In this document: positions 1,875 through 14,943 of the stretch, piece by piece
Position numbering within the stretch: the stretch's first letter is position 1
Layout: the number at the start of each line of letters is the position of its first letter
Origin: an archaeon UBA55
GTDB taxonomy: Archaea; Undinarchaeota; Undinarchaeia; Undinarchaeales; Undinarchaeaceae
Assembly: GCA_002495465.1 (NCBI GenBank)
Contig: DAFN01000002.1
Location: 525 to 15,467, forward strand
Reading direction: 5' to 3'
Length of the DNA: 14,943 nt
Program-made: the position numbers and the translations under genes
The notes under the pieces: model-generated
The model's input: only the letters and a program-made list of their open reading frames with translations
What the model was told of the DNA's origin: nothing
Databases searched by the model: none

Positions 1875-2132
1875 ATGGCAGAAGCTAAAAAGACGCAGGT
1901 CGGAACAGTGATCCACTACTATGGCAATGCTAGTGTTGCAGTGGTAGATCTTACAAAAGTTCTGAAGGTGGGCGACAAGATCTCCATAGTTGGGGAGAAC
2001 ACAGATGTCCAGCAAACAGTAGAATCCATGCAGCTAGAGCACACGCAAATTGAAAAAGCAAAGAAAGGAGATTCTGTCGGCCTGAAAGTAGATGGAAGAG
2101 TGGGGAAAAATAGCAAAGTCTTCAAGGTCTAA
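1875..2132 (+). CDS. Translation elongation factor-like protein (EF-Tu domain II-type beta barrel), 85 aa
   Basis: The whole protein is one small beta-barrel domain like domain II of EF-Tu/EF-1A: VGTVIHYYGNASVAVVDL, then LKVGDKISIVGENTD, then a QTVESMQLEH strand and AKKGDSVGLKVDGRV. The 'VG.V.HYY....VAVVDL....KVGD' and 'QTVESMQ.EH' patterns match the short stand-alone elongation-factor-like proteins found in many archaea and bacteria. There is no GTPase domain, so it is not a translation factor in itself; the domain usually binds RNA or a partner protein. It is convergent with the acyltransferase gene, whose stop is 6 bases away. The family call is strong, the role unknown. Confidence 0.85.
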   Translation: MAEAKKTQVGTVIHYYGNASVAVVDLTKVLKVGDKISIVGENTDVQQTVESMQLEHTQIEKAKKGDSVGLKVDGRVGKNSKVFKV

Positions 2133-2138
2133 GTAAAG

Positions 2139-3317
2139 TCAGATTAGGCCCATGGCCTTTCCGACTTTCGCGAACTTTTCGACACACTCATCCAAATCTT
2201 CCTTTGTATGACCTGCTGTAACATTTGCTCTGATTCTTGACATGTCCTTAGCAACTAAAGGAAATACTATTGGTTTAACGAAGACTCCTTCGTCCCACAT
2301 TCTCTTCGAAAGTTCCTGCGCCTTCGAGGCCTCTCCAACTATTACAGGAGTAATTGGTGTCTGAGTTCTTCCTGTGTTGAAGCCAAGGTCCTTCATCTGC
2401 TCCTGGAAATGCTTAGTGTTATCCCACAGCCGCTTGTGATGCTCTGGCTCATCCTGAATAATCTTAATCGCTTCTCTGCAGGCCTGTACAATCGCCGGAG
2501 GGTGAGCTGTTGTGAAAATGAAGGAGCGGGCTCTGTTTGTCAGATAATCTCTAAGTTCCTGATCGCCTGCTATATAACCTCCAACACATCCGAAAGCTTT
2601 CGAGAGAGTTCCCATGTCAATATCTACGCGGCCGTGAAGCCCGAAGTGGTCAACAATTCCGCGACCTTCTCTCCCGAGAACGCCGTCTCCGTGGGCGTCG
2701 TCAACCATTACCATCGCATCAAATTCCTCTGCAAGCTCTACAATCTGGTCCAGAGGAGAAATATCTCCGTCCATTGAGAATACTCCGTCTGCAACTATAA
2801 GCCGCCTTCGTGCGTCTTTCGTTTCCTGAAGTGCCTTTCTCAGACCCTCCATATCATTGTGAGGGAAAATCTTTCTATCTGACTTCGTCAGTCGGACTCC
2901 GTCTATAATACTTCCATGGTTCAGTTCGTCAGATATAATCGCATCTTCAGGTCCCATAAGGGCCTGTATTGTCCCGCGATTTGCGGCAATTCCTGCGACG
3001 AAAACTAGTGAAGATTCAGTTCCCTTGTACTCAGCAAGCTCTTTCTCGAGCTCGTTGTGTATTGGCATTGTCCCGTTTATCTGCCTTACAGCTCCTGTTC
3101 CGAATCCCCAGTCATCTATTGCCTTCTTTGCAGCGGCAATAACTCTCGGATGATTTGTAAAATTAAGATAATTATTTGAGGAAAGCGTTATTACATCCTT
3201 TCCATTGATTCTTATCCTTGGACCTGCTGGTGTTTCCATTACAGGGAGCTCCCCAAAAAGATTCTGGTCTTTCAGACTTTGCACCTCTTCTTTGAGCCAG
3301 TTTGTCCTCTCAGTCAT
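2139..3317 (-). CDS. KBL/BioF-family PLP-dependent acyltransferase (glycine C-acetyltransferase type), 392 aa
   Basis: This is an alpha-oxoamine synthase of normal family length. Such enzymes condense an acyl-CoA with an amino acid: glycine and acetyl-CoA for 2-amino-3-ketobutyrate ligase (threonine breakdown), alanine and pimeloyl-CoA for biotin synthesis. PLP residues are visible: His134 (LNHGSIIDG), Asp206 and His209 in VDDAHGDG, and the Schiff-base Lys240 in TLSKAFGCVGGY. The N-terminal SSNNYLNFTNHP and GFGTGAVRQINGT are the family's substrate-site motifs. No biotin or threonine dehydrogenase gene is nearby, so the acyl donor cannot be settled; the glycine acetyltransferase type is my preference. 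On its strand an ATATATAAA box is centred about 31 bases upstream, giving a leader of a few bases. Confidence 0.88.
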   Translation of the reverse strand: MTERTNWLKEEVQSLKDQNLFGELPVMETPAGPRIRINGKDVITLSSNNYLNFTNHPRVIAAAKKAIDDWGFGTGAVRQINGTMPIHNELEKELAEYKGTESSLVFVAGIAANRGTIQALMGPEDAIISDELNHGSIIDGVRLTKSDRKIFPHNDMEGLRKALQETKDARRRLIVADGVFSMDGDISPLDQIVELAEEFDAMVMVDDAHGDGVLGREGRGIVDHFGLHGRVDIDMGTLSKAFGCVGGYIAGDQELRDYLTNRARSFIFTTAHPPAIVQACREAIKIIQDEPEHHKRLWDNTKHFQEQMKDLGFNTGRTQTPITPVIVGEASKAQELSKRMWDEGVFVKPIVFPLVAKDMSRIRANVTAGHTKEDLDECVEKFAKVGKAMGLI

Positions 3318-3343
3318 AGCTGGCTTTGATGATAATAGTCCTT

Positions 3344-3352
3344 TTTATATAT
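3344..3352 (-). promoter_or_regulatory. TATA box of the KBL/BioF-family gene
   Basis: On the minus strand this reads ATATATAAA, centred about 31 bases before the start codon at 3317. It implies a very short 5' leader of about five bases. It lies in the 57-base gap after the TrmB-like gene on the same strand, so the acyltransferase is probably its own transcription unit. Confidence 0.6.
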
Positions 3353-3374
3353 TGTTAAAAGATTGTCTAACAGC

Positions 3375-4259
3375 TTACTCTTCCAGAGCCTTTCCTAAAA
3401 TCTGAAGAGCTTTGAGTCCGAGTGGTTCAGCCTCTTCAAAGATTAGGTCGTACATCTTGTCAAGAGAATCGACCATTTCCTTTGACTCTATATACAGTCC
3501 GTTTTCCACAGAACCGGTTTTTGGGGAAACCATTCCGAGAAGCGCTCTGTCCTTTACAATAAGCATGCTCTCGATTCCCGTTCCTTTTACATATCTGCAT
3601 CTCAGGTTTTCATTTTCAAGAGCTCCCTTTAGACTTTTTATTACTTCATCAGCGTTCTCACTTTCTGATGCAACTTTTCTTACGTTTTCAAGGGAGAAGA
3701 TATATTTCAGGTCGAGGCGCTTAGACTCCGTCATATCTATCATAATTTCATAAGTTCTCCTTCTCCAGGTTGAGTTCCTTTCCGTGGACAGAAAGAGAAG
3801 TGGAGTCCTTTCTGATATTTTTGCGGTCGTGCTATCCATTAGCATTTCCCTGGCCTTTATGTAAAATTCCTCGGGGCTGCTTATTATTGTAATGCTCCCT
3901 GTTTTTTCTCCGAGCTCTGTCCGCCAAGCCTTTTCTATTTTGTTAGCTACTTCTAGAGTTTTTTTCTCAGTCTGAGTTAATTTCCGTTCTTTCCTGCTTA
4001 TCGCATTCTGCAGAGCTTCTTTCAGGTTTCGTATAGAGTATGTCTTCGGTTTTTTGTATTCAACATCAAGGAAACCCCAATCAACAAGGTCATTCAAAAA
4101 TTCGTAAATCCTCCCTTTTGGAACTTCAGTCTCTATCCAAAGAGTTTCTGCAGAAAGTTTCTTTCCCTTGTTTGACATAAAGTGGCTCAGCAAAATTAAA
4201 TGATTTTCTCTAAAATCATATTCTTCTTTGAGTAGTATTCTGAATTCAGGGTCTAGCAT
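3375..4259 (-). CDS. TrmB-like transcriptional regulator, 294 aa
   Basis: The N-terminus (about 20-75) is a winged helix-turn-helix: ENHLILLSHFMSNKGKKLSA, then a recognition region VPKGRIYEFLNDLVDWGFLD and a wing ending in KPKTYSI. A charged, probably coiled-coil linker follows (about 75-110: NAISRKERKLTQTEKKTLE). The rest (about 115-294) resembles the alpha/beta effector domain of TrmB-family regulators, which often sense sugars or other small molecules. It is divergent from the RNR cluster, with only 103 bases between the starts, and the two promoters share an A/T box. Control of itself and of the RNR genes is therefore likely, an inference from position. ATG 4259 is chosen because AGGTG (4266-4270) sits six bases ahead of it; the in-frame GTG 4268 lies inside that Shine-Dalgarno. 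Confidence 0.8.
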   Translation of the reverse strand: MLDPEFRILLKEEYDFRENHLILLSHFMSNKGKKLSAETLWIETEVPKGRIYEFLNDLVDWGFLDVEYKKPKTYSIRNLKEALQNAISRKERKLTQTEKKTLEVANKIEKAWRTELGEKTGSITIISSPEEFYIKAREMLMDSTTAKISERTPLLFLSTERNSTWRRRTYEIMIDMTESKRLDLKYIFSLENVRKVASESENADEVIKSLKGALENENLRCRYVKGTGIESMLIVKDRALLGMVSPKTGSVENGLYIESKEMVDSLDKMYDLIFEEAEPLGLKALQILGKALEE

Positions 4260-4265
4260 ATTTCC

Positions 4266-4270
4266 CACCT
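4266..4270 (-). promoter_or_regulatory. Shine-Dalgarno site fixing the TrmB-like start
   Basis: AGGTG on the minus strand is followed by six bases and then ATG 4259. It overlaps the alternative GTG start at 4268 and so argues for the ATG. This gene has a leader, unlike most others here. Confidence 0.55.
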
Positions 4271-4294
4271 TTAATCGGTTTAATGTGTGTATAG

Positions 4295-4312
4295 TTTAAA
4301 AACGTATTTAAA
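4295..4312. promoter_or_regulatory. Shared divergent promoter region between the regulator and the RNR cluster
   Basis: Two TTTAAA palindromes at 4295-4300 and 4307-4312 lie in the 103-base gap. The second is part of TATTTAAA (4305-4312), which reads as a TATA-like box in both directions. On the plus strand it predicts a start near 4334 and a leader of about 29 bases to ATG 4363. On the minus strand it predicts a start near 4282 and a leader of about 23 bases to ATG 4259. Both genes have Shine-Dalgarno sites, consistent with real leaders. The 12-base spacing of the repeats could also suit an operator. Confidence 0.5.
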
Positions 4313-4350
4313 GCTTTTTGAATTATCGCAAAATACACAAGGAAAGTTTT

Positions 4351-4356
4351 AAGGTG
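4351..4356 (+). promoter_or_regulatory. Shine-Dalgarno site of the NrdD-like gene
   Basis: AAGGTG is followed by six bases and then ATG 4363. It decides for this start over the in-frame TTG at 4318, which lies only a few bases past the TATA box and upstream of any likely transcription start. Confidence 0.65.
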
Positions 4357-4362
4357 TTTAAA

Positions 4363-6195
4363 ATGACTGCACAAATCCCCTCTTCTCTAGAAAAACCAGA
4401 GCCCGTTCGAGTAAGGACGTCTCAGAATCTTCTAGTTCCTTTCAGTAAAGAGAAGATTGTAGTCTCTCTGGTGGCGGAGACAAACATAGATGAGGCAATT
4501 GCCAAGTCAATTGCCCAGGAAGTTGAGCACGACGTCTCCAGGATGCACTTAAGATATCTAACTGCACCTCTAATAAGAGAAATCGTTAACGTGAAGCTCC
4601 TTGAGCACGGCTATGAGTCTGCCAGAATGAGATACACACGTCTTGGTATGCCTGTTTATGACGCTCGTGAGCTAATATTCACAGGTCCGTCTGAAAGAGA
4701 GGAAATTCCACACAATCCTGAGACAGTTCACAAGATGATGGCTGATGTTGTTTCAAGAGAATATGCCTATGTGAATATACTTCCTCCAACTAGAGTGGAT
4801 GATCATATGAGCGGAAACCTGCACATTCACCGGCTAAATTATTTTGCAACTCGGCCTTATTGTTTCTCTCACGACCTGAGGCCATTTTTGAGAAGTGGTC
4901 TTAAGGTGGATGGTCTTGGAAGATTTGCACCGGTTGCAGGTCCTGCAAAAGCTCCTGATGTTGCCTTTCTGCAGGCCTCAAGAGTTCTCTCTGCCGCTCA
5001 GACAAACTGTTCAGGAAGTCAGGGTCTCATAGCTTTAAACGTTCTTCTTTCTCCCTATGTCACAGGTCTTGATTATACTCAAATAAAGCAGCTGGTTCAG
5101 ATGTTTGTTTTTGAAATGAGCCACATGTACGTAACTCGAGGCGGTCAGACTATGACTTCCACAATAGATTTGCATTTTAACATTCCAAAAAATCTGGCAT
5201 CTTGTGAGGCTGTTTCATCAGGAGGTTCTGTAAAAGGTGTCTACTCTGATTATTCCACAGAATCAGAATCTATTTTGGAGGCATTTCTGGACATTTATCT
5301 GCAAGGAGACTACGCCGGGAATCCATTTAAATATCCTCAACTTAATCTCTTCCTCGGTAAGTCTCCATCTGAGAAACTTCTTACAAAAGCTCTAGAGCTT
5401 ACAGAGAAATTCCAGACTCCTTACTTTGTACTGGGGGATCAGGAAGGACTAACATACCAAAACTCATCTTACATTTTCAAGTGCCCGGAGGGTGAGCCTT
5501 CTCGGGGTGGAGTTCTTCAAACGGTTACTATCAATCTTCCAAAAATTGCCTACGATTCCAATACTGACGAGGACAGGTTTTTTACTATTCTTGACCAAAG
5601 AATGAGTGCTGCAAAGGATGTACTTTTCCTCAAAAGAGAGGTCGTCCACCGCAGTATGGAAGGTAATCTTATTCCATTTCTCCAGCAAAAAATACCTGCT
5701 GATGAGTCCTATCTCATTCCCGACATCCAGCCATTATCAATTGGAGTGACTGGCATGAACGAGCTTCTTGAAATCATGACAGGTGTTTCACTTTCTGATA
5801 AAACTGGTCAGGAGTTTGGGCGCAAAGTACTTGGACGTATGAAGGAAAATTCAGAAGAGTACAGGAAGCAGAGCGGTCTTAATTTTCAGATAGCAGGCTG
5901 CCCAGCCACGAAAGTTCGGGACAGATTTTTTAAAATAGACTCAATAAATTATAGTGCTGCGCCAAAAATTGGAACTTATACTCCTTCCTTTGAAGCTTCC
6001 CCGAAGCTTGATTCATCCCATAAGCTTTTATCTGAGTCCAGCCTACTCCCATTTCTGGATGGCGGAGCTCTTCAGTCACTTACAGTTCCTGAACCTGGAA
6101 AGCTTCGAGAGCTTCTCAATGAGGCAGTAAAGTCTGGTTCGAAATATATTAAGTTTGAGGGGAGGAGAAAAAATGCAAAAAACAGAAACACTTAA
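4363..6195 (+). CDS. NrdD-like (class III RNR) protein lacking zinc and glycyl-radical C-terminus, 610 aa
   Basis: An ATP cone occupies about residues 15-105 (VPFSKEKIVVSL ... YESARMRYTRLGM). The class III RNR barrel follows, closely like archaeal NrdD: GNLHIHRLNYF, HDLRPFLRSGLKVDG, IKQLVQMFVFEMSHMYVTRGG, QTVTINLPKIAYDS and DIQPLSIGVTGMNEL. An active NrdD has a radical-carrying Cys in a finger loop (typically MGCR); here the equivalent stretch reads TYQNSSYIFKC (from residue 364), with no MGCR. The protein ends in SGSKYIKFEGRR, where family members continue into a CxxC...CxxC zinc site and the RVxGY glycyl-radical loop; both are absent. No nrdG activase is in the window. It cannot work as a normal glycyl-radical enzyme, so I infer a nucleotide-sensing or structural partner of the downstream RNR. 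It overlaps NrdJ-A by 23 bases. Confidence 0.85.
   Translation: MTAQIPSSLEKPEPVRVRTSQNLLVPFSKEKIVVSLVAETNIDEAIAKSIAQEVEHDVSRMHLRYLTAPLIREIVNVKLLEHGYESARMRYTRLGMPVYDARELIFTGPSEREEIPHNPETVHKMMADVVSREYAYVNILPPTRVDDHMSGNLHIHRLNYFATRPYCFSHDLRPFLRSGLKVDGLGRFAPVAGPAKAPDVAFLQASRVLSAAQTNCSGSQGLIALNVLLSPYVTGLDYTQIKQLVQMFVFEMSHMYVTRGGQTMTSTIDLHFNIPKNLASCEAVSSGGSVKGVYSDYSTESESILEAFLDIYLQGDYAGNPFKYPQLNLFLGKSPSEKLLTKALELTEKFQTPYFVLGDQEGLTYQNSSYIFKCPEGEPSRGGVLQTVTINLPKIAYDSNTDEDRFFTILDQRMSAAKDVLFLKREVVHRSMEGNLIPFLQQKIPADESYLIPDIQPLSIGVTGMNELLEIMTGVSLSDKTGQEFGRKVLGRMKENSEEYRKQSGLNFQIAGCPATKVRDRFFKIDSINYSAAPKIGTYTPSFEASPKLDSSHKLLSESSLLPFLDGGALQSLTVPEPGKLRELLNEAVKSGSKYIKFEGRRKNAKNRNT
6158..6166 (+). promoter_or_regulatory. 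Strong Shine-Dalgarno site of NrdJ-A
   Basis: GGGGAGGAG is followed by six A residues and ATG 6173. It lies inside the last codons of the NrdD-like gene, so the two are probably translationally coupled. It rules out the in-frame TTG at 6155. Confidence 0.75.
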
Positions 6196-8683
6196 CGGCT
6201 ATGCCAATATGTTCGAGTACGACAGCAGTCTCACAAAAAAAGTCGGTATCGAGCCAGTCAATAAATACAAGGATCTTCTTTCTTATATTAAGGAAAGACA
6301 GGCCGATGGAAGTTTGCCAGTCCATCCTGAAGATTATCTATGTGGTAATGAGCTCGCCAAAAACATATTCGAGAAAAAATATTACCTCAAAGATTTAGAA
6401 ACAAATCTTATTGATCGGAAACCTGAGGATGTCTACGCCAGACTTTCTGCTTTCATAGCTTCACTCGAAGATTCTGATGAGAAGAGAAAAAAATGGGCAT
6501 CAGAATTTTACAAGGATTTGTATGAGGGCTACTATGTTCCTGGTGGAAGAGTTATTGCAGGTGCTGGAGATCTTTATCGATTGAAAACTCTTGCCAATTG
6601 TTTTGTTGCCTTAATTAAAAAGGACAGCATAGAGTCGATATATGATGCAGCCTATCAGTGTGCAAGGACTGAGTCATACGGAGGCGGAATCGGCATTGAT
6701 GTATCTACATTGCGACCAAAAGGGGCCGTAGTTCATAATGCTGCTGACACCTCTACTGGCGCTGTCTCTTTTATGGATATTTATTCTCTTACGACAGGTC
6801 TAATAGGTCAGTCTGGGAGAAGGGGCGCTCTTATGCTTACCTTGGACGTCAAGCACCCAGATATTCTTGATTTCTTAAAAGTCAAGAAGGTTTCTAACTG
6901 GGTCACCAAACAAATTGTTGAGCAGTGCAATTGGTCCGGAAAGTTCAATGATTCTCAGCTGGAGATAATTGAGAAGCAAGTCCGGGAGAACACACAAATC
7001 CGCTTTGCTAATATCAGTATAAAGGTATCTGATGAGTTTATGCAGGCCGTTGACGAGCAGATAAACCACGGTCCAGATAAGTTATTGCTTTACAAGAAGC
7101 CTAAGGGAACTGTTATGAGAGCTCCGCAGACACTTTCTGTGAATTATTCCTACGGAATGCCGTCAAAAGATATTTCGGAATATGAGCTTCTAGGCAATTT
7201 TGATTCTTTAGATTCTCTCAATGAAAAGCTGAAAAGTGATTATAATCAGCAGGTTAAACTCTCAGATCTTGAAGATGTCAAGAAAAGAGATTTATATGGA
7301 GATTATCCTCTTGAGTTGGACCAGGATTACGACCTGTCTGTAAAATATGCCGGGGATTTTCTTCTGTACTTTGCGTCAGAAGATTCAGGAGATATAAAAA
7401 ACTTGGTCAAGGCTCGTGATGTTTGGGATCTTTTCATAGAAGGAAATTACCAGACTGCTGAGCCTGGACTTATTTTCTGGTCCTCAATGACAAAGTATTC
7501 TCCTTCAAATTATGTCGGGCGTCCTATAAGTTCCACAAATCCCTGTGGAGAGGTTCCCCTTGAGGATGGGGGGGCGTGCAATCTTGGGTCTATAAATCTG
7601 TCCCGAATGGTAGACGAGGGATATACAGATAATGCCTCCATTAATTGGGAGCGTCTAGACAGCGCAGCCAGCAACATTACAAGATTCCTTGATAACGTTG
7701 TCACATGGAATGAGAGTCTAAACGCGCTTGAGAGTCAGAGAATTGCCGCCGGAGAAACCCGCCGTCTTGGTATAGGAGTTATGGGTATTGCAGATCTTCT
7801 AAACCAGCTAGGTCTTGGATACGATTCTGATGATGGAGTTAAAATCATAGAAAAAGTCATGAGCCGAATAGCTAATACAATATATCGGACTTCTGCACAT
7901 CTTGCGGAGGAGAAGGGAAGCTCTCCAATTTATGACTACGAAAAATATTCACAAAACCCATTTTTCAAGGAGAGCCTGGAGGATGAGACACGGGAACTTA
8001 TTAAGGAAAAAGGTCTCAGGAATATCGCTCTCCTGTCTATAGCGCCTACTGGGTCAATTTCAAACATAGTTCTGGGATTTAAAGACGGAGATAAAAATTA
8101 TATTGGCATAAGTGGTGGGGTTGAACCAATTTTTGCTCTGTATTATACAAGGCGTTCAGAGTCATTTGGTAATAAGCTCTTTAAAGTATTCCACGGGACA
8201 GTCCAGGCTTATCTGGATGTGAAAGGGCTTTCGGATAAGGCAGAGAATATAGGGTCAGATAGTGATTTAAAAAATATACTTCCTGAGCATTTTTTCAGGA
8301 CTGCTCATAATATTGATCCGCAACAAAGAATAGTGGCCCAGTCAATTTGCCAGAAATATATAGACCACAGCATATCATCAACATGTAATCTTGCTGAGGA
8401 TATAGAGCCTGAAGTTATTTCAAGCATGTATATTGAAGCATGGAAAAAAGGTCTCAAGGGAATTACAATATACCGGGAAGGAAGCCGTTATCCAATACTT
8501 AGTGTTGATACTAAGGATAGTGAGTTCCAGAAGTTCAAGGACAAGAAGTTCAAAATACCTGGTGATGACGGTGAGGAGCAAACTCTCAAAGGGGATAGTG
8601 TTATATCCCTGGCCGATGGCCGCTTGACAACAGTCTACCACGCAATAAAATCAGGAAAGATAGACTTAGGGGGTGGTAGTTAA
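6173..8683 (+). CDS. nrdJ: Class II ribonucleotide reductase catalytic subunit without ATP cone or C-terminal tail ('NrdJ-A'), 836 aa
   Basis: It reduces ribonucleotides to deoxyribonucleotides by a B12-type thiyl-radical mechanism. Active-site residues are complete: Cys143 (LANCFV), Asn456/Cys458/Glu460 in TNPCGEVPL, and Cys469 in [10 protein letters not shown]. Cys143 and Cys469 form the pair oxidised in each cycle, and Cys458 carries the radical. SIAPTGSISN and SGGVEPIFALYY form the phosphate site and C-terminal barrel, and LKGITIYREGSRY marks the end of the core. The N-terminus has no ATP cone; it starts directly in the helical RNR domain (YLKDLETN, RVIAGAG). The C-terminus stops at DLGGGS without the usual Cys tail, which is encoded by the next gene. 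Thermoplasma-type class II enzymes seem the nearest relatives. No intein motifs are seen. No NrdB radical subunit is present, and the cobA in the cluster supports class II. Confidence 0.88.
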   Translation: MQKTETLNGYANMFEYDSSLTKKVGIEPVNKYKDLLSYIKERQADGSLPVHPEDYLCGNELAKNIFEKKYYLKDLETNLIDRKPEDVYARLSAFIASLEDSDEKRKKWASEFYKDLYEGYYVPGGRVIAGAGDLYRLKTLANCFVALIKKDSIESIYDAAYQCARTESYGGGIGIDVSTLRPKGAVVHNAADTSTGAVSFMDIYSLTTGLIGQSGRRGALMLTLDVKHPDILDFLKVKKVSNWVTKQIVEQCNWSGKFNDSQLEIIEKQVRENTQIRFANISIKVSDEFMQAVDEQINHGPDKLLLYKKPKGTVMRAPQTLSVNYSYGMPSKDISEYELLGNFDSLDSLNEKLKSDYNQQVKLSDLEDVKKRDLYGDYPLELDQDYDLSVKYAGDFLLYFASEDSGDIKNLVKARDVWDLFIEGNYQTAEPGLIFWSSMTKYSPSNYVGRPISSTNPCGEVPLEDGGACNLGSINLSRMVDEGYTDNASINWERLDSAASNITRFLDNVVTWNESLNALESQRIAAGETRRLGIGVMGIADLLNQLGLGYDSDDGVKIIEKVMSRIANTIYRTSAHLAEEKGSSPIYDYEKYSQNPFFKESLEDETRELIKEKGLRNIALLSIAPTGSISNIVLGFKDGDKNYIGISGGVEPIFALYYTRRSESFGNKLFKVFHGTVQAYLDVKGLSDKAENIGSDSDLKNILPEHFFRTAHNIDPQQRIVAQSICQKYIDHSISSTCNLAEDIEPEVISSMYIEAWKKGLKGITIYREGSRYPILSVDTKDSEFQKFKDKKFKIPGDDGEEQTLKGDSVISLADGRLTTVYHAIKSGKIDLGGGS
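8669..8676 (+). promoter_or_regulatory. Shine-Dalgarno site of the RNR tail protein
   Basis: GGGGGTGG lies in the last codons of NrdJ-A, six bases before ATG 8683. The NrdJ-A stop TAA (8681-8683) shares its last A with this ATG. The arrangement points to coupled re-initiation, which would set a fixed ratio of tail to catalytic subunit. Confidence 0.65.
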
Positions 8684-8907
8684 TGGTGATAAAATTCGGA
8701 CAATCAACAATTTCTTTACAGGAAGTAGGGACTTCTTCCGAAAACGAGGAAACACTCACTGAGTCCTCGTCTGAGGAAGCCGAGGAATCTACTGAAGAAG
8801 GAACGCTTGCCAAATGTCCAAATTGTGAGCAAAATACCCTGAAAATAGAACAGGGATGCTCCTCCTGTACAAATCCTGAGTGCGGAATGAGCAAGTGCGA
8901 CTCTTAG
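8683..8907 (+). CDS. Stand-alone RNR C-terminal zinc-ribbon/redox tail protein, 74 aa
   Basis: This is the domain normally fused to the end of class II RNRs, here as its own gene. Residues 1-17 are a short strand-forming segment. Residues 18-43 are an acidic Ser/Glu/Thr-rich flexible linker (SSENEETLTESSSEEAEEST). Residues 45-72 are the Cys tail: C45-x2-C48, C59-x2-C62, then C67-x4-C72 (ECGMSKC). In the family the first four Cys bind zinc, and the last C-x4-C pair matches the C-terminal dithiol that re-reduces the active-site disulfide (E. coli NrdA has the same C-x4-C spacing). It follows NrdJ-A with a TAATG overlap and precedes NrdJ-B, both of which lack a tail. It may therefore serve one or both in trans, and itself be reduced by thioredoxin or glutaredoxin. 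Confidence 0.85.
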   Translation: MVIKFGQSTISLQEVGTSSENEETLTESSSEEAEESTEEGTLAKCPNCEQNTLKIEQGCSSCTNPECGMSKCDS

Positions 8908-8915
8908 TTTAAATA
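8908..8915 (+). promoter_or_regulatory. TATA box of the nrdJ-B-cobA unit
   Basis: TTTAAATA begins at the base after the tail-protein stop codon and is centred 26 bases before ATG 8938. NrdJ-B therefore probably has its own leaderless transcript, although read-through from upstream is possible. Confidence 0.6.
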
Positions 8916-8937
8916 TTAATGTTGCCTATATAATATT

Positions 8938-10989
8938 ATGGCAAAAATTTCTAAACTTTCCAGAGTAAAGAAGAGAGGTGGAGAGCTTGTTCCATTTAGT
9001 CCTAGAAAAATCAAAGAGGCTATCTGGAATGCCGCACAGTCTGTCGCTGGCAAAGATAAGGATCTTGCCTATTCAATAGGGCAGGAAGTTGTCAAGTCTC
9101 TTCAAAGTAAATATCCTGGGGCAGTTCCAAGTGTTGAGGATATACAGGATGTTGTGGAGAAGTCCCTCGTTGAGGGCGGTCATTACAGAACTGCGAAAGC
9201 GTATATACTTTTCAGGCACGAGAGAGAAAAAGAAAGGACAGAGCAAGAGTTCGTTCTTGGAGAGAGTTTTAAGGAAAGCAACCTTAATTTTTCTACTTAT
9301 GCTCTTGAGGTTTTGAAGGGCAGATGCCTCCTAAAAGATCACAGCGGAACTGTTATAGAGACTCCCCAGAAGCTTCTTAAGCGTGTTTCAAAGGCAGTAG
9401 CCGGAGCCGAGAAGGAGTATGGCTCAAAATCAACAAGGAAAACAGAAGCAGAATTTTATGATATGATGAAAAATCTTCAGTTTTTACCAGGAAGCCCATT
9501 GCTTTCAAATGCAGGAACTCAGATGAACCAATTGTCTTCCTGCCTGGTTCTTCCAATAGAAGATTCAATCTCCGGAATATTCGGAACTCTCCAGACTGCC
9601 GCTCTTGTAAACAAAAATGGAGGAGGTACAGGGTTTTCCTTTACTCGACTTCGCGGAAAGCGCGGTGTGGTTGCCGGGGGTGCTGATACTGCAGCAGGTC
9701 CTCTGGCTTTCATGGACGTTTTTGACAGTTCTGCAAATGCTATAAAACAAGGTGGCAGAAGAAAAGGGGCCAATATGGGAATTCTCCGAATTGACCATCC
9801 TGATATTTTTGATTTTATCAGTTCCAAAAATCGTCCTGGGCGGCTTAGTAACTTCAACATATCGGTTGCTATAACTGATGCCTTTATGAAAGCTGTTTTG
9901 AAGGATGGAAAATTCAATCTCCTTGATCCTAATACAAAAAAGAAGCTTAGAGAGGTTCGGGCAAAAGATTTATTTGATCTCATAGTTCATAGTGCCTGGC
10001 TCACAGGGGACCCTGGTATTGTCTTCATAGATCAGATAAACAACAAACACCCTTGCAAACATCTTGGAGAGCTTGAAGCAACCAGCCCATGTGGTGAGGT
10101 TCCTCTACTTCCAAATGAAAGCTGTAATCTTGGCTCAATAAATTTGGTTTCGATGGTGAAAGCGGATTGGAGCGATCTTGACTGGAGTCTTCTCCGTCAG
10201 ACAGTCCAAAAAGCTGTCAGGTTCCTGGACAATTCTCTTGATTCTGCCAGTTACGCGAGTCATGACATAGAGTTTGCAACAAAGAGTACAAGAAAGATAG
10301 GACTTGGTATATTTGGTTTCGCTGACATGCTCTATATGCTCGGAATAAAGTACGATTCAAAAAAAGGTCTTGCAATGGCTGAGAAGCTTATGAAATATAT
10401 TAAGGACACAGCTTACAATACATCAGAAATACTGGCGAAGGAGCGAGGGACTTTTCCAGCTTGGGAAGGCTCTTTACATCATAAGAATAAGAGGCGCATG
10501 AGGAACGCCACATGTATTGCAATTGCTCCTACAGGAACAATCAGCATACTCGCTGATGTGTCTTCTGGTTGTGAGCCAAATTTTGCAATTTCCTATGTCA
10601 TGACGGTTCTTGATAATAGCCGCTTTGTTTACACAAATCCCATTTTCGAAAAGATTGCCATGGATCAGGGCTTTTATTCTCCAAGTCTGATGGCGGAGAT
10701 TGCGAAAATTGGATCAATTCAAAATTTCAAAGATATTCCAAAGAATATAAAGAATGTTTTCGTGACTTCTCTTGATATTTCTCCTGAATGGCATATCAAG
10801 GTTCAGGCAGCCCTCCAAAAATACGTTGATAATTCAGTTTCAAAGACAGCGAACCTCGCAAACACAGCAACTCTGAAGCAAATCAGTGATACTCTGATTC
10901 TTGCATGGAAGAGTGGCTGCAAGGGAATCACAGTATATAGGGAGGGAAGCCACCCACACCAGGTTATATCCACTGGCGAAAGAAGATGA
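8938..10989 (+). CDS. nrdJ: Class II ribonucleotide reductase catalytic subunit with ATP cone, without C-terminal tail ('NrdJ-B'), 683 aa
   Basis: Residues about 10-100 form an ATP cone ([20 protein letters not shown] ... [14 protein letters not shown]), the usual allosteric activity site. The catalytic barrel shows Cys202 (LSSCLVLP), the PCGE loop with radical Cys385 and Glu387, and Cys396 in [31 protein letters not shown] and [12 protein letters not shown] are also typical. The chain ends at [12 protein letters not shown], just after the core; the zinc/Cys tail of normal NrdJ is missing, so an outside reductant is needed, most simply the 74-residue tail protein. The residue at the conserved Asn of N-x-C-x-E (Asn437 in E. 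coli NrdA) is Ser383 here, while NrdJ-A keeps Asn. It overlaps cobA by ATGA (10986-10989), tying it to B12 cofactor supply. It may be the main RNR, a second isoform or an inactive partner. Confidence 0.87.
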
Positions 10990-11588
10990 GACTAGGGGAT
11001 ACACCTAATTCGCGAACTGGTCTTGGACTAGTTCATGTGTACACTGGTGATGGAAAAGGGAAGACAACTGCGGCTCTTGGTCTGGCCATGCGTGCAATTG
11101 GGCATGGAATAAAAGTTTACATGATACAATTTCTAAAAGGAGGCACATATGTCGGGGAATATCTTGCCTCTGAATCCTTTATGCCTAATTTCACAATAAA
11201 ACAATTTGGTAAAAAATGCACCTACTCTGACATGTACAAACAAGATAGAGACTACTCTTGTGGAAGTTGCAGGGATTGTTTCATGACAAGTTCTGAGATG
11301 ATTAGCAGTTCTAAGGAGGCTCTTGAGCTTTCCAAGGAAATTACCTCATCCGGAGATTATGGCCTAGTTATTTTAGATGAGATAAATATTGCTCTCAGTT
11401 TCAAGTACATCAAAATAGAGGATGTTTTGGAAATGCTCACGAATAAGAGTGAGTCAACAGAGCTGGTTCTAACAGGGAGGGGGGCACCTGAGGAAATCCG
11501 GGAAGTGGCAGATTACGTTACAGTTCTTCAAAGAGAGAAGCATCCATTTGACCGCGGGATTATGGGGCGTTGGGGTGTAGAATACTGA
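10986..11588 (+). CDS. cobA: Cob(I)alamin adenosyltransferase, CobA/CobO type, 200 aa
   Basis: This enzyme transfers the adenosyl group of ATP to reduced corrinoid, making adenosylcobalamin, the radical cofactor of class II RNR. A P-loop GDGKGKTT is at 21-28, GHGIKVYMIQFLKGG follows at 39-53, Walker B-like VILDEINIAL at 128-137, LTGRGAPEEI near 162-171, and the family-end KHPFDRGIMGRWGVEY closes the chain. Length is normal for CobO/BtuR. A Cys cluster at 78-98 (C78, C92, C95, C98; SCGSCRDCF) sits between the P-loop and Walker B and could bind a metal. The start codon overlaps the NrdJ-B stop (ATGA), so the two are almost certainly co-translated, which supports B12 dependence. No other cobalamin genes are in the window; it may act in salvage. 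Confidence 0.9.
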   Translation: MRLGDTPNSRTGLGLVHVYTGDGKGKTTAALGLAMRAIGHGIKVYMIQFLKGGTYVGEYLASESFMPNFTIKQFGKKCTYSDMYKQDRDYSCGSCRDCFMTSSEMISSSKEALELSKEITSSGDYGLVILDEINIALSFKYIKIEDVLEMLTNKSESTELVLTGRGAPEEIREVADYVTVLQREKHPFDRGIMGRWGVEY

Positions 11589-11600
11589 ATTACCAAGATA

Positions 11601-11607
11601 TTTATAT
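11601..11607 (+). promoter_or_regulatory. TATA box of the 74-aa membrane protein gene
   Basis: TTTATAT is centred 25 bases before ATG 11629, giving a leaderless mRNA. It lies in the short gap after cobA and marks the end of the RNR locus. Confidence 0.65.
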
Positions 11608-11628
11608 CTGACAATTCACCATTCATCT

Positions 11629-11853
11629 ATGTCAAAATATTCACCCGCTTCGAAAGAGAGGTTCGCAAAACTTTTTCTGAGTGCAACAGCACTTTCATTG
11701 CTTCTGTTTATGTTCGTTTATACAGGAAATTCCACGAGCGGTCTCTCGATTTCAGAGTCTTTGGGTCCGGCTGGCGGATTGTACGCAATTGTTCTCGCGT
11801 CTGTAACAGTTCTACTTGGAGCCCTTATATGGTTAGTTTACTATCGGAATTAG
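11629..11853 (+). CDS. Small two-helix membrane protein, 74 aa
   Basis: A basic N-terminus (MSKYSPASKERFAK) is followed by a first membrane helix at about 15-31 (LFLSATALSLLLFMFVY), a polar glycine/serine-rich loop (TGNSTSGLSISESLGPAGG) and a second helix at about 51-71 (YAIVLASVTVLLGALIWLVYY), ending in Arg-Asn. By the positive-inside rule both ends should face the cytoplasm. No family is recognised. It is promoter-led and lies upstream of gar1-tfb, but gar1 has its own TATA box, so the neighbours do not reveal its role. Confidence 0.7.
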   Translation: MSKYSPASKERFAKLFLSATALSLLLFMFVYTGNSTSGLSISESLGPAGGLYAIVLASVTVLLGALIWLVYYRN

Positions 11854-11863
11854 TTAGCAAAAC

Positions 11864-11871
11864 TTTATATA
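11864..11871 (+). promoter_or_regulatory. TATA box of the gar1-tfb operon
   Basis: TTTATATA is centred about 31 bases before ATG 11899, giving a leader of about five bases. The in-frame ATG at 11881 and TTG at 11878 lie upstream of the predicted transcription start, so they are rejected as starts. Confidence 0.6.
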
Positions 11872-11898
11872 CTGCCTTTGATGCTACTATTTAAGTCT

Positions 11899-12126
11899 AT
11901 GGGATTACTTGGAAAGGTTCTTCACTTGTCAAAAAGTGGAAATATAATTGTCAGCTCTTCAAAATTGAGGAACTTGCCCAGAACTGGTGTAAAGGCTTTT
12001 GATTCTGATAGGAGTCTTGTCGGAAAGGTTTCAGAAGTTTTTGGTCCGGTTTCAAGTCCATATGTCTCTGTGAAACCCCTCAATAAAGATAACGAGGCTT
12101 TGATTGGTAAAATGGTGTATGTATAA
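11899..12126 (+). CDS. gar1: H/ACA RNP protein Gar1, 75 aa
   Basis: Gar1 is a subunit of the archaeal H/ACA box C/D-independent guide-RNA particle that makes pseudouridine in rRNA, together with Cbf5, Nop10 and L7Ae. The small beta-barrel is complete: [15 protein letters not shown] at the start, [10 protein letters not shown] in the middle and the strongly conserved [20 protein letters not shown]. Length fits archaeal Gar1. The last A of its stop (12124-12126) is the first base of the tfb start (TAATG), an arrangement consistent with the gar1-tfb pairing seen in other archaea. Start ATG 11899 follows from the TATA position and the family N-terminus. Confidence 0.88.
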
Positions 12127-13046
12127 TGGCAGAAAAATGTCCTGAATGCAATTCAGAAAGTGTGTCTTTTGACTCAAAGAGAGCGGAGACTGTGTGCAAT
12201 AAGTGCGGAATTGTTATAGATGAGAGGCAGATTGATACTACACAGGAGTGGCGTGCCTTTGACTATGAACAGAGAAAGAAGCGCGACAGAACGGGCTCCT
12301 TTCTTACGTATACAAGGCACGATAAAGGACTTTCCACCTCTATCGGAGATCAGGGATACAGCGACCTATACAAACTATCTCCTTCAAAGAGGGCATCATT
12401 CTACAGGCTTAAGCGATGGCACAAACAAGTTTCAACTGCTACTGAAAGAAACCTTCGATTCGCTCTTAGTGAGTTAGACAGAATTTCAAGTACTCTGAGC
12501 TTACCAAAAAACATCAGGGAAACTACAGCACTTATTTACAGAAAAGCAGTTACAAAGGGTCTCGTCCGTGGCCGCTCAATGGAAAGCGTTGTTGCCGCCG
12601 CTCTCTACGCTGCATGCAGGAAACACAATGTTCCAAGGACTCTCGATGAAATTGCAGAAGCTTCCAATGTTAAGAAGAGGGAAATAGGAAGGACTTATAG
12701 ATTCATAACAAGAGAACTGAAGATAAAACTTCTTCCGACTTCGCCTATTGATTACATTTCAAGGTTTTCATCTTCCCTGAAACTTTCCCCACTTGTTCAG
12801 GAAGAGGCAATTAAAATACTCAAACTGGCCCAGGAGCACGATCTTGTTTCTGGTCGCGGGCCAACAGGTGTTGCCGCAGCGGCCATATACGTTTCCTCAA
12901 CATTGTCAAATGAAAAGAGGACTCAGCGAGAGGTAGCAGAGGTTGCAGGTGTTACTGAAGTTACAATAAGAAACCGCTATAAGGAGCTCATAGATGAGCT
13001 CGGAATCGCGGACAAAATGAGTGAAGCTTCAGCGAAAGAAGACTAA
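12126..13046 (+). CDS. tfb: Transcription initiation factor B (TFB, TFIIB homologue), 306 aa
   Basis: TFB binds the TBP-TATA complex and recruits RNA polymerase. The N-terminal zinc ribbon has C5, C8, C24 and C27 (CPEC...CNKC). The B-reader/linker region follows ([17 protein letters not shown], then HDKGLSTSI). Two cyclin-fold repeats make up about 105-200 and 205-300, with the typical [20 protein letters not shown] and [17 protein letters not shown] helices and a C-terminal helix-turn-helix ([20 protein letters not shown]) that contacts the BRE. Length is normal and no part is missing. It starts inside the gar1 stop codon and so is co-transcribed with it. This gene alone establishes that the DNA is archaeal. 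Confidence 0.95.
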
Positions 13047-13048
13047 GC

Positions 13049-14122
13049 TCATTTACTAAATTTTTCTGACCTAATTGACGTCGGGCTGAAATGCGTTCTC
13101 GTGGCTTTTATTCCCTTTTCATTTAATTTTTCTATAGCCTCAGCAATTCTTGGAACATTTCCTTTGTAGCGTTTATGGAGGTCGTAATAAAATGCAGGTC
13201 CGCTGGCTTCTTCTTTCATCAATTCTAAAGTTTTTATCAGTCTTTTCTGTGTTCCAAAGTCCTGAGTTTCCACGCTTTTCAAGCCACTTTTTATAAATTT
13301 CTCGTCAAAGATTGGGCCACTCCATATTGGTCCAAATTCTGATAGCTTTTTCTTACACTTGCATTTTTTCTCGAAACCGTGTTCACCACAGTCAAAACAG
13401 TGGTAGGCCGGTTCTATCTTCTCCAAGGATTTGTTTGCATCTTCTGCGCCTTCCGTCGCTCTTAGTGTTATTCTAAGGTAGTGGTCAGCATTTAGAACCG
13501 AGAGAACTTGTATTCCTTTTTCAAATCTTGCAGCGGCTCTGGCAGCGGCGGCTATAACAAGTCTGGCTCCAGCCTCATGACAGTATTCTGTTCTAAGAGA
13601 AGTTCCTCCATAATTTCGCTTTGCCACTTTTGGATAGATTCCACAGAGTGCTGTCATATCAGTCGCCGTTATTCCAACAATTCCTTTGTTTCTAATGCTC
13701 CTGAACGCAGGTTCAAGGAAGGGTGCAGGACTTCCAAATGGGTCGAGGTCAATAAAATCAAATTTTCTTTCATTCATAAGGGCTGCAGCGTCTCGCTTAA
13801 GAATTTCGGCGACTATTTTGTTTCTTTTCACATTCTTTTTTATAAGACTTATTGCTCCCTGACTTAGGTCATTTATTGTAACTTCAAGACCGTCAATTTC
13901 CTTGCAGAATCGTATTCCCCGTATTCCTGAGGCTCCGAATGCGTCAAGTGCTTTCCACCCATTTTTGCGTACAGCGGCAAGAGTCGCTATAGTAAAGTCC
14001 CTATTGAATTCCATTCGTGGGTTGTAAAAGCCTACAGTCTTTTCAGGCTTATGCTCTCCCCCTTGTACCAGGATTTTTACCTTCCCTTCTAATATTTCCG
14101 TGCTACTCACTCCCATAAACAT
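13049..14122 (-). CDS. trm1: tRNA (guanine26-N2)-dimethyltransferase Trm1, 357 aa
   Basis: Trm1 uses S-adenosylmethionine to form dimethylguanosine at position 26 of tRNAs. Family features in order: YNPRMEFNRDFTIATL near the N-terminus; the SAM-site LDAFGASGIRGIRF; the catalytic DLDPFGSPAPFLEPA; TATDMTALCGIYPKVAKRNYGG; and a Cys-rich zinc element (CFDCGEHGFEKKCKCKK) before the winged-helix C-terminal domain ending in THFSPTSIRSEK. It is complete and of usual archaeal length. ATG 14122 and ATG 14116 are both possible; a TTTATTA box (14142-14148 on this strand) slightly favours 14116 for a near-leaderless transcript. Its stop lies two bases from that of tfb, with which it converges. Confidence 0.93.
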   Translation of the reverse strand: MFMGVSSTEILEGKVKILVQGGEHKPEKTVGFYNPRMEFNRDFTIATLAAVRKNGWKALDAFGASGIRGIRFCKEIDGLEVTINDLSQGAISLIKKNVKRNKIVAEILKRDAAALMNERKFDFIDLDPFGSPAPFLEPAFRSIRNKGIVGITATDMTALCGIYPKVAKRNYGGTSLRTEYCHEAGARLVIAAAARAAARFEKGIQVLSVLNADHYLRITLRATEGAEDANKSLEKIEPAYHCFDCGEHGFEKKCKCKKKLSEFGPIWSGPIFDEKFIKSGLKSVETQDFGTQKRLIKTLELMKEEASGPAFYYDLHKRYKGNVPRIAEAIEKLNEKGIKATRTHFSPTSIRSEKFSK

Positions 14123-14141
14123 TATATATCTAACAAGTTAG

Positions 14142-14148
14142 TAATAAA
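14142..14148 (-). promoter_or_regulatory. Possible TATA box of trm1
   Basis: On the minus strand TTTATTA is centred 23 bases before ATG 14122 and 29 before ATG 14116. A second A/T stretch (GATATATAA, 14123-14130) is too close to the start to act as the TATA box unless translation begins further inside. The box lies in the short divergent gap shared with the Mrr-like gene. Confidence 0.35.
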
Positions 14149-14164
14149 TGCAATGAATTCTGTT

Positions 14165-14170
14165 GGTGAT
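14165..14170 (+). promoter_or_regulatory. Shine-Dalgarno site of the Mrr-like gene
   Basis: GGTGAT, a direct match to the archaeal anti-Shine-Dalgarno, ends eight bases before ATG 14179 and supports that start. The A/T-rich stretch around 14140-14150 could be its promoter. Confidence 0.5.
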
Positions 14171-14178
14171 GCCCGTTT

Positions 14179-14943
14179 ATGGATGTAAACACACTTCTTG
14201 ACTTTTCAGACGAACTTCTTAGTATGTATGGCTACGTTACTCGCAGGAATGTCGGAGTCCGCGGGGGGAAAATTTTAACGGCCGAGCTGGCAAAAGAAAC
14301 TGGGAAGGAGGGAGAAATAATTCCTTCAAAGGAAGAAGCAGGAGTTCTCTATAAGGTAGATATACTTGCAGAAAAAAAGGACATCGAGAGGCCCTTCGGT
14401 CGAGTGGTTGTTCGCTATAAGCGTGGAACTGATCCTGCTGACGCAGGAGATGTCAATCATATAAGTGCTGTGATGAATGCAGCGCAAGGATATTCTGCAA
14501 TACTTCTTTCAACAACAGGTTTCACAGAGTCTGCAAAAAAGACGGCCGATTCCCTTGGAACAGTTACTCTCATGGGTCCAAAGAAGCTACAACAACTTCT
14601 TGGAAAAGCTATGGTGAAGGAACAGTGGTGGCAAAACGCCCCTGCTTTCCCTGTACTCTGGGATTATGAGAAAGTAAGGTGGAAGCTCAAATGGTTCTTC
14701 GAGAAGATGCTGTTCATAAACTTCAATACTATCTGGTTCATGACTAAGATGCTGGTTTATGAGCCATACTGGAAGTTCTCTTATTCTGTGTCTGACCATG
14801 GCAAGATAAAAGAAGGAACCTTTGCTATAAATGCTGTTACTGGGGAGCTAGATATTTGGAGAGATATTGATCCAGAACTCTGGGCAGAGATTAAGGGTAG
14901 CAAGAAAGAGGCGATTTTCGAGCAGGAAATAATCTACCAGATT
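14179..14943 (+). CDS. Mrr-like (PD-(D/E)XK fold) restriction-endonuclease-family protein, C-terminus outside window
   Basis: The frame is open for 255 codons to the window edge with no stop. Residues about 1-150 resemble the Mrr/type IV restriction nuclease fold: a VDILAE strand with the first acidic residue, then GRVVVRYKRG in place of the usual '(E/Q)xK' strand, and the later VNHISAVMNAAQGYSAILLS plus TTGFTESAKKTADSLG, matching the Mrr 'ttg.ft..A...A' end. The acid/Gln of the motif appears to be Arg here, so activity is uncertain. After about 160 comes a Trp/Phe-rich stretch (VRWKLKWFFEKMLFINFNTI), then YEPYWKFSYSV and AINAVTGELDIW, resembling small domains that follow such nuclease-like modules in archaeal proteins. 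It may be a DNA-defence or repair protein or a membrane-associated regulator. Confidence 0.65.
   Translation, partial: MDVNTLLDFSDELLSMYGYVTRRNVGVRGGKILTAELAKETGKEGEIIPSKEEAGVLYKVDILAEKKDIERPFGRVVVRYKRGTDPADAGDVNHISAVMNAAQGYSAILLSTTGFTESAKKTADSLGTVTLMGPKKLQQLLGKAMVKEQWWQNAPAFPVLWDYEKVRWKLKWFFEKMLFINFNTIWFMTKMLVYEPYWKFSYSVSDHGKIKEGTFAINAVTGELDIWRDIDPELWAEIKGSKKEAIFEQEIIYQI

Follow-up and report, generated by a model that had tools for sequence, protein, structure and literature searches.

A split class II ribonucleotide reductase and its cone-bearing, finger-loop-altered paralogue in a five-gene locus of Undinarchaeota

How may a ribonucleotide reductase (RNR) work when its cone, barrel, redox tail and cofactor enzyme are spread over five genes? 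The question is raised by a window of 14,943 nucleotides from the archaeon UBA55 (Undinarchaeota; assembly GCA_002495465.1, contig DAFN01000002.1, positions 525 to 15,467), which sits on a 27-kb contig of a 613.5-kb assembly that is 75.6 % complete. On its forward strand, the window encodes an NrdD-like protein of 610 amino acids (aa) (4363..6195, with an alternative in-frame GTG start at 4354), the class II catalytic subunit NrdJ-A (6173..8683, 836 aa), a free redox tail (8683..8907, 74 aa), a second class II subunit, NrdJ-B (8938..10989, 683 aa), and the CobA/BtuR cob(I)alamin adenosyltransferase (10986..11588, 200 aa; PF02572, 1.1e-55), whose gene overlaps that of NrdJ-B by ATGA. The five genes are co-directional and three of the four junctions overlap, the remaining gap, between the tail and NrdJ-B, being 30 bases. 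A sequence-only reading of the window had listed these five consecutive genes, all of which are present, and had proposed that their products complement one another in a multi-subunit RNR with allosteric and reducing modules supplied in trans.

The answer favoured here, with somewhat more confidence than doubt, is that the locus encodes a heteromeric adenosylcobalamin (AdoCbl)-dependent class II RNR in which NrdJ-A is the live enzyme, the tail acts in trans and NrdJ-B is a cone-bearing pseudo-subunit. In such an enzyme NrdJ-A, with its intact radical and redox cysteines, would perform the chemistry, the free six-cysteine tail would act in trans to re-reduce the active site, in the manner of NrdJb with NrdJa in Pseudomonas aeruginosa, and CobA would make the adenosylcobalamin cofactor. 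NrdJ-B would no longer turn over and would bring ATP/dATP activity control to the coneless NrdJ-A, with which it would pair, probably via the dimer helices of dimeric RNRs; the binding of ATP or dATP at its cone would be relayed to the live subunit, like that at a cone on NrdB in some class I RNRs. L013 and L014, the loci of the two congeneric genomes, show this five-gene order as well, so that it is kept in all three genomes of the genus, and the closest named match of the first gene is a 'Candidatus Undinarchaeales' metagenome-assembled genome (95 % identity). The ratio of nonsynonymous to synonymous substitution (dN/dS) against the congeners is 0.03–0.16 over the five genes, with dS reaching 1.9 against L014, so that all five genes are maintained; these ratios speak against gene decay, which was set aside. 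Neither the window's genome nor those of its congeners (assemblies 76–86 % complete) yielded a further NrdJ or NrdD, and hence none yielded a complete NrdJ with a tail of its own, which the sequence-only reading had named as a finding that would speak against it.

Five residues, C225, N437, C439, E441 and C462 in Escherichia coli NrdA numbering, are taken here to be the catalytic ones. NrdJ-A (TIGR02504, 491.4 bits against a cut-off of 399.95; PF02867) lacks both a cone and a Cys tail, and has a canonical finger loop, N456-P-C-G-E460 (7538..7552), in the alignment to Thermotoga maritima NrdJ (1xje), in which the equivalents of C225 and C462 are aligned as well, so that NxCxE and both redox cysteines are present. 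The adjoining third gene encodes a six-Cys array, CxxC-x10-CxxC-x4-C-x4-C (8815..8898), which was read from the sequence and aligned with fused and free tails. Its sole NCBIfam hit covers the final residues of the class II RNR model PRK08665 (E 2.5e-4), and Pfam gives one below-cut-off match, PF24844 (E 0.049), and none to TSCPD. In P0124, the nearest full-length NrdJ-A relative outside the genus (65 % identity), cone, barrel and six-Cys tail lie on one chain; the 74-aa product corresponds to this fused tail and is homologous to the fused tails of NrdJ-A relatives. A sequencing error that splits the two genes was ruled out, because their stop/start overlap is kept in the three genomes with differing stop codons (TAATG, TAATG and TGATG). 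With a separate Cys-rich gene adjoining a tailless catalytic gene, NrdJ-A and the free tail are, on sequence grounds, a split class II RNR, and the presence of CobA in the operon is only circumstantial evidence for the presumed AdoCbl-dependent nucleotide reduction by NrdJ-A.

The split tail extends beyond the genus. When 394 archaeal genomes were searched with an E-value limit of 1e-150, NrdJ-A was returned from the genus and from nine other genomes, in six of which a separate tail gene follows it (G062, with 44 aa, G136, G142, G165, G178 and G338), which bears out the earlier description of the tail as a separate module. The Cys pair is fused to NrdJ-A in G159 and G354, as it is in four further NrdJ-A-type genes (G454, G576, G634 and G702), and the contig of G172 ends too early. 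A TSCPD domain was detected in two of the five separate tails tested (G136 and G165). The arrangement resembles NrdJa/NrdJb of P. aeruginosa, a split class II RNR in which barrel and Cys-rich reducing domain are likewise separate polypeptides of one operon, and which was described in 2015 as a proteobacterial split without a counterpart in any other non-viral organism (PMC4520616). The present tail differs in having 74 aa and no Pfam TSCPD match, in being archaeal and in sharing its operon with two more RNR-like proteins. The split tail is accordingly a new archaeal case of an already known kind.

NrdJ-B, which scores above the TIGR02504 cut-off and has a class II fold, carries an ATP-cone at residues 9–97 (8962..9228; PF03477, 72.4 bits) and ends 12 residues past the barrel, with no Cys pair of its own. 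The NxCxE finger loop is common to class O, I and II RNRs (PMC9669993, section 2.5), but in NrdJ-B the loop is S383-P-C-G-E387 (10084..10098) in place of N-P-C-G-E, a replacement that is found in all three genomes of the genus and that the sequence-only reading had overlooked. Among the best 120 listed relatives of NrdJ-B, itself included, 86 have NPC and are all tailed, 31 have NQC and are all tailless, and three have SPC, two of these being tailless proteins of the genus and the third, P0316, being tailed. In a 157-protein tree, a single clade unites P0316 with the genus and the NQC group (FastTree local support 97); it reappears on a larger tree (support 93), where the inner node shared with just the NQC group receives only 54. 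A NrdJ-A gene probably sits beside P0316, to judge from record data shared with P0124, the contig itself being unread.

The coupling of tail loss to active-site change is seen across 158 NrdJ-B-type open reading frames (ORFs), defined as longer than 500 aa, not cut at the 5' end and having their best match, at more than 300 bits, among NrdJ-B-type references. They come from 75 genomes of one set (G181, being cut, is uncounted), from 72 of the 77 genomes of a second set (G427, G455, G490, G507 and G521, with ORFs of 840–855 aa, were left unread) and from G001 and G002; the ORFs of G469 and G564 are cut at the 3' end and received no tail call. NPCE is kept in 118 of the 121 tailed ORFs and in four of the 35 tailless ones (31 changed), and all five catalytic residues in 120/121 and 14/35, respectively (Fisher p 6e-25 for NPCE and 8e-16 for the five residues, kinship uncorrected). 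The tail state changes at least seven times on the tree of these ORFs, and tailless copies occur in several groups, which suggests that tail loss and finger-loop change either happened repeatedly or constitute an old trait, the backbone of the tree being poorly resolved; the idea that all tailless copies share one origin was set aside on the basis of the larger tree.

Tailless copies also keep company. Of the 33 genomes in which a tailless copy occurs, 32 have a second class II gene (that of G539 being a fragment at the start of a contig; G137, the 33rd genome, was not searched with PF02867 for one). In a set of 29 genomes selected because one copy was tailless, degenerate or truncated (or, for G469, because two were in view), every genome has a second barrel; of the 20 controls, whose copy is canonical and tailed, three have one, and G011 has a fragment only. 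A frequent order, complete NrdJ, tailless NrdJ-B and CobA, matches the window (G667, G631 and G539); CobA lies between the two NrdJ genes in G634, G646, G669 and G702, and in the NQC family NrdJ-B directly follows a complete NrdJ in several genomes (e.g. G248, G582 and G585). In G569, G625 and G657 the pair is on different contigs, with both members at contig ends. Two further loci are of note. G336 (L107 334-6740) has three consecutive overlapping NrdJ genes with finger loops NLC, NPC and NPC, followed by CobA; none of the three has a Cys tail, nor was a tail ORF detected within the 12 kb read. In G678 (L276 1517-3779) the NrdJ upstream of the degenerate NrdJ-B consists of two overlapping ORFs of 426 and 335 aa, with a TGA inside.

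This evidence bears on the alternative that NrdJ-B works as a class II reductase in its own right alongside NrdJ-A, the two serving different substrates or conditions, for example, and sharing the tail and the adenosyltransferase. NrdJ-B of the window retains the equivalents of C225, C439, E441 and C462, and since only the Asn is lost, activity of NrdJ-B is still conceivable. On the other hand, that Asn of NxCxE is gone in all three genomes, tailless kin have lost the Asn, C225, C462 or the Glu in 21 of 35 cases, and their association with a second NrdJ is nearly invariable; two working reductases are thus considered unlikely, if still a serious competitor.

Cone and catalysis tend to lie on different chains. 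Thirty pairs have readable N-termini on both members (ten proteins were checked with Pfam and the genus was counted once); they include G504, whose degenerate copy is tailed, and G564, whose degenerate ORF is 3'-cut and has no tail call, and leave out G336 (three copies), G137 (no partner seen), G539 (partner cut) and G469 (second copy canonical and cut). Exactly one member is coned in 24 of the 30 pairs, the degenerate member alone in 22 and the live member alone in two (G646 and G669), and no pair is coneless. Cones are carried by 32 of the 35 tailless copies, with a PF03477 match in 19/19 members of an alignment of degenerate-group cones (A1); since 96 of the 121 tailed copies are also coned, live partners appear to be coneless more often than usual, though the partner types differ. 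In this respect, the complementarity of modules that had been proposed from the window is supported by the comparison. The swapped cone of G646 and G669 was set aside as proof of complementarity, these being two genomes of one family. Taken together, the SPCGE loop, the pattern in tailless copies, the recurrent second NrdJ and the single cone of most pairs make a regulatory pseudo-subunit of NrdJ-A, equipped with a cone, the most likely identity of NrdJ-B.

The first gene had been described as an NrdD-like ATP-cone protein. The cone (residues 17–91, 4411..4635) scores above the cut-off (PF03477, 29.3 bits against 25.8), and the predicted structure (pLDDT 86) also contains the full class III barrel, ending at its last strand, so that a bare ATP-cone protein was ruled out; the PF13597 NRDD profile aligns only up to position 492 of 562, and there is no Gly motif. 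The finger loop, YQNSSY, has N367-S368 (5461..5466) where an alignment of 120 proteins places two Cys in 78 of 88 glycyl-bearing relatives, a loss of both cysteines that the sequence-only reading had overlooked. The glycyl motif is missing in 32 of the 120 listed relatives (the protein itself included), of which five retain Cys-Cys and look truncated, and the other 27 have at most one Cys. Compared with the class III NrdD structures of T4, T. maritima, P. copri and S. thermophilus, the protein stops at the last barrel strand, lacks the zinc/glycyl-radical domain and the finger-loop cysteines and has no activase that was found: TIGR02495, the one NrdG model used, matched nothing in the assemblies of the genus (G000, G004 and G005; 76–86 % complete). 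That it is a class III RNR is therefore very unlikely.

A working class III reductase could still be assembled if the glycyl-radical domain were encoded elsewhere, and detached glycyl-radical ORFs do lie directly downstream of NrdD in G003, G108 and G206. This explanation is nevertheless regarded as extremely improbable, given the loss of both finger-loop cysteines, the position of NrdJ-A, and no glycyl ORF, directly after the NrdD-like gene, the lack of a further PF13597 match in the window's genome and the lack, in the 76–86 % complete assemblies of the genus, of a TIGR02495 (NrdG) match of the kind found in G003. In G003 (L020 1177-3315), G108 (L110 3592-5698) and G206 (L193 5512-7822) the small downstream ORF belongs to a true NrdD, and in G003 it is followed by NrdG, the TIGR02495 match adjoining this split NrdD. 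In G169 and G188 (L196 and L198) a glycyl-less NrdD paralogue adjoins an NrdD whose ORF ends just before the glycyl region, which could be another split or a recoded stop. Six further NrdD relatives, some from Altiarchaeota (P0090, P0096, P0100, P0105, P0115 and P0116), have an RDTGH/RDSGH glycyl motif and an aligned finger loop without Cys-Cys.

The NrdD-like protein thus appears to be a class III-derived, cone-bearing pseudoenzyme whose role is probably regulatory; because its gene is maintained (dN/dS 0.08–0.15), a regulatory or scaffold role is likely. Elsewhere, weak matches to it were listed in two of the six genomes with a split NrdJ-A (G142, E 7.5e-15, and G338, E 2.4e-18) and none in the other four, and in G002 a similar glycyl-less NrdD gene, truncated where the contig stops, precedes a complete, coned NrdJ by about 5 kb. 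That the protein is the cone donor for NrdJ-A across archaea was set aside, as no such gene was seen beside the NrdJ pairs read elsewhere and the NrdJ of G002 has its own cone.

Several observations weigh against the heteromeric reading or the earlier proposal. The order of the five genes is absent from every other locus read and is thus a property of one genus with three genomes. Linkage, which the sequence-only reading had made a point of, holds within the genus, but the degenerate copy and the live NrdJ are unlinked in G354, G473, G537, G576 and G672. A second copy need not degenerate, since eight genomes hold two tailed canonical NrdJ (G051, G071, G086, G091, G233, G306, G423 and G462). 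As regards the cones, 13 of the 22 pairs with a coneless live partner belong to one family, the counts being uncorrected for kinship; both members are coned in G564, G576, G634 and G702, with a weak cone on the live member also in G473 and G672; and the pseudo-subunits of G646 and G669 have no cone. NrdJ-A and a tail gene occur without NrdJ-B in six other archaea, the split-tail genomes, in which no second complete NrdJ was found (with the provisos that a barrel fragment of 102 positions turned up in G165 and that the G136 assembly is 85 % complete), which indicates that the pair can stand alone; its NrdJ-A has a cone in G062 and G178 and none in G136, G142, G165 and G338, so that neither the partners nor the cone would be obligatory. 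The NrdD-like gene, finally, has no recurrent place in the NrdJ module.

Some of these observations bear on the earlier reading in its full form, according to which NrdJ-A with its tail, NrdJ-B and the NrdD-like protein belong to one obligate complex, each giving a missing module. The order kept in three genomes and the complementary modules speak for it, but the self-sufficient NrdJ-A and tail of other archaea and the NrdJ pairs that have no NrdD-like neighbour make it a distinctly improbable explanation. What survives of the multi-subunit proposal are the separate tail genes and the division of cone and catalytic function between two chains, which is seen in many archaea; the NrdD-like protein falls outside the recurrent module.

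Alternatively, an acquired NrdJ-A may have displaced older RNRs, of which NrdJ-B and the NrdD-like protein would be relics that have another role, or none in nucleotide reduction. In the sister lineages G001 and G002 a different and complete NrdJ is present, and G003 contains a true NrdD along with NrdG; named close kin of NrdJ-A occur in Woesearchaeota and in bacteria such as Caldithrix, which fits acquisition. Relics are nonetheless judged improbable, as the NrdD-like gene and NrdJ-B (dN/dS 0.055–0.088) are both under purifying selection, overlap their operon neighbours and retain their cones.

The heteromeric reading, with NrdJ-B as the pseudo-subunit, has partial parallels among known systems. 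In NrdJd, a six-Cys zinc-finger array at the extreme C-terminus reduces the active site, also between subunits, and in certain Frankia and a small number of Alphaproteobacteria only one of two NrdJd copies has the domain (PMC5704485), an arrangement that resembles the present one in its C-terminal array and in its two copies of which one has the domain; there, both copies are NrdJd, and the consulted sections of that paper mention neither an altered finger loop nor cone complementarity. In some class I RNRs the ATP-cone is reported to lie on the radical-generating subunit NrdB, the catalytic subunit being coneless (PMC5794259); here the coned partner of the coneless catalytic subunit is a catalytic-subunit paralogue, in a class without a beta subunit. 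The dimer helices invoked for pairing are those described for dimeric RNRs (PMC9669993). A catalytically dead paralogue beside a live enzyme is reported for the trypanosomatid prozymes, which pair with and control the live AdoMetDC (PMC5201418) and deoxyhypusine synthase (PMC3663545); these belong to other enzyme families, and binding is demonstrated there, whereas for NrdJ-A and NrdJ-B we infer it. No published case of an RNR pseudoenzyme was found in the open-licence literature searched, and, as far as could be told from that literature, the recurrent live-plus-dead NrdJ pair is undescribed.

Outside the RNR genes, a glycine C-acetyltransferase block (window 2143-3359; L014 4771-5987) is 94.5 % identical to G004, with a dS of 0.25, compared with only 81 % for 3375-14943 and a dS of 1.0–1.9 in the other genes measured. 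In L013 and L014 the block lies about 3 kb farther from the next gene, a pattern attributable to recent recombination or transfer plus a 3-kb insertion or deletion. An 85-aa protein (window 1875-2132) resembles elongation factor Tu domain 2 and the peptidase U32 C-terminal domain below the Pfam cut-offs; it is present in L013 and was not found in L014.

The general view of class II RNRs is that they are built from a single kind of chain, which contains its own regulation. A wider proposal, which we put forward tentatively and hold to be just short of probable, is that many of the DPANN-type archaea searched possess a two-chain class II RNR made up of a live, often coneless NrdJ and a dead, tailless and mostly coned allosteric paralogue, together with CobA, to which the Undinarchaeota would add a free tail and a dead NrdD as a second sensor. 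If this is true, a live/dead NrdJ pair with the cone on the dead member would constitute a new way of controlling overall activity, analogous to the cone that some class I RNRs carry on NrdB, and the action of the cone could be tested as that of a separate protein added in trans. Moreover, archaeal NrdJ and NrdD annotations include proteins that are probably unable to reduce nucleotides, which matters for counts of RNR classes per genome.

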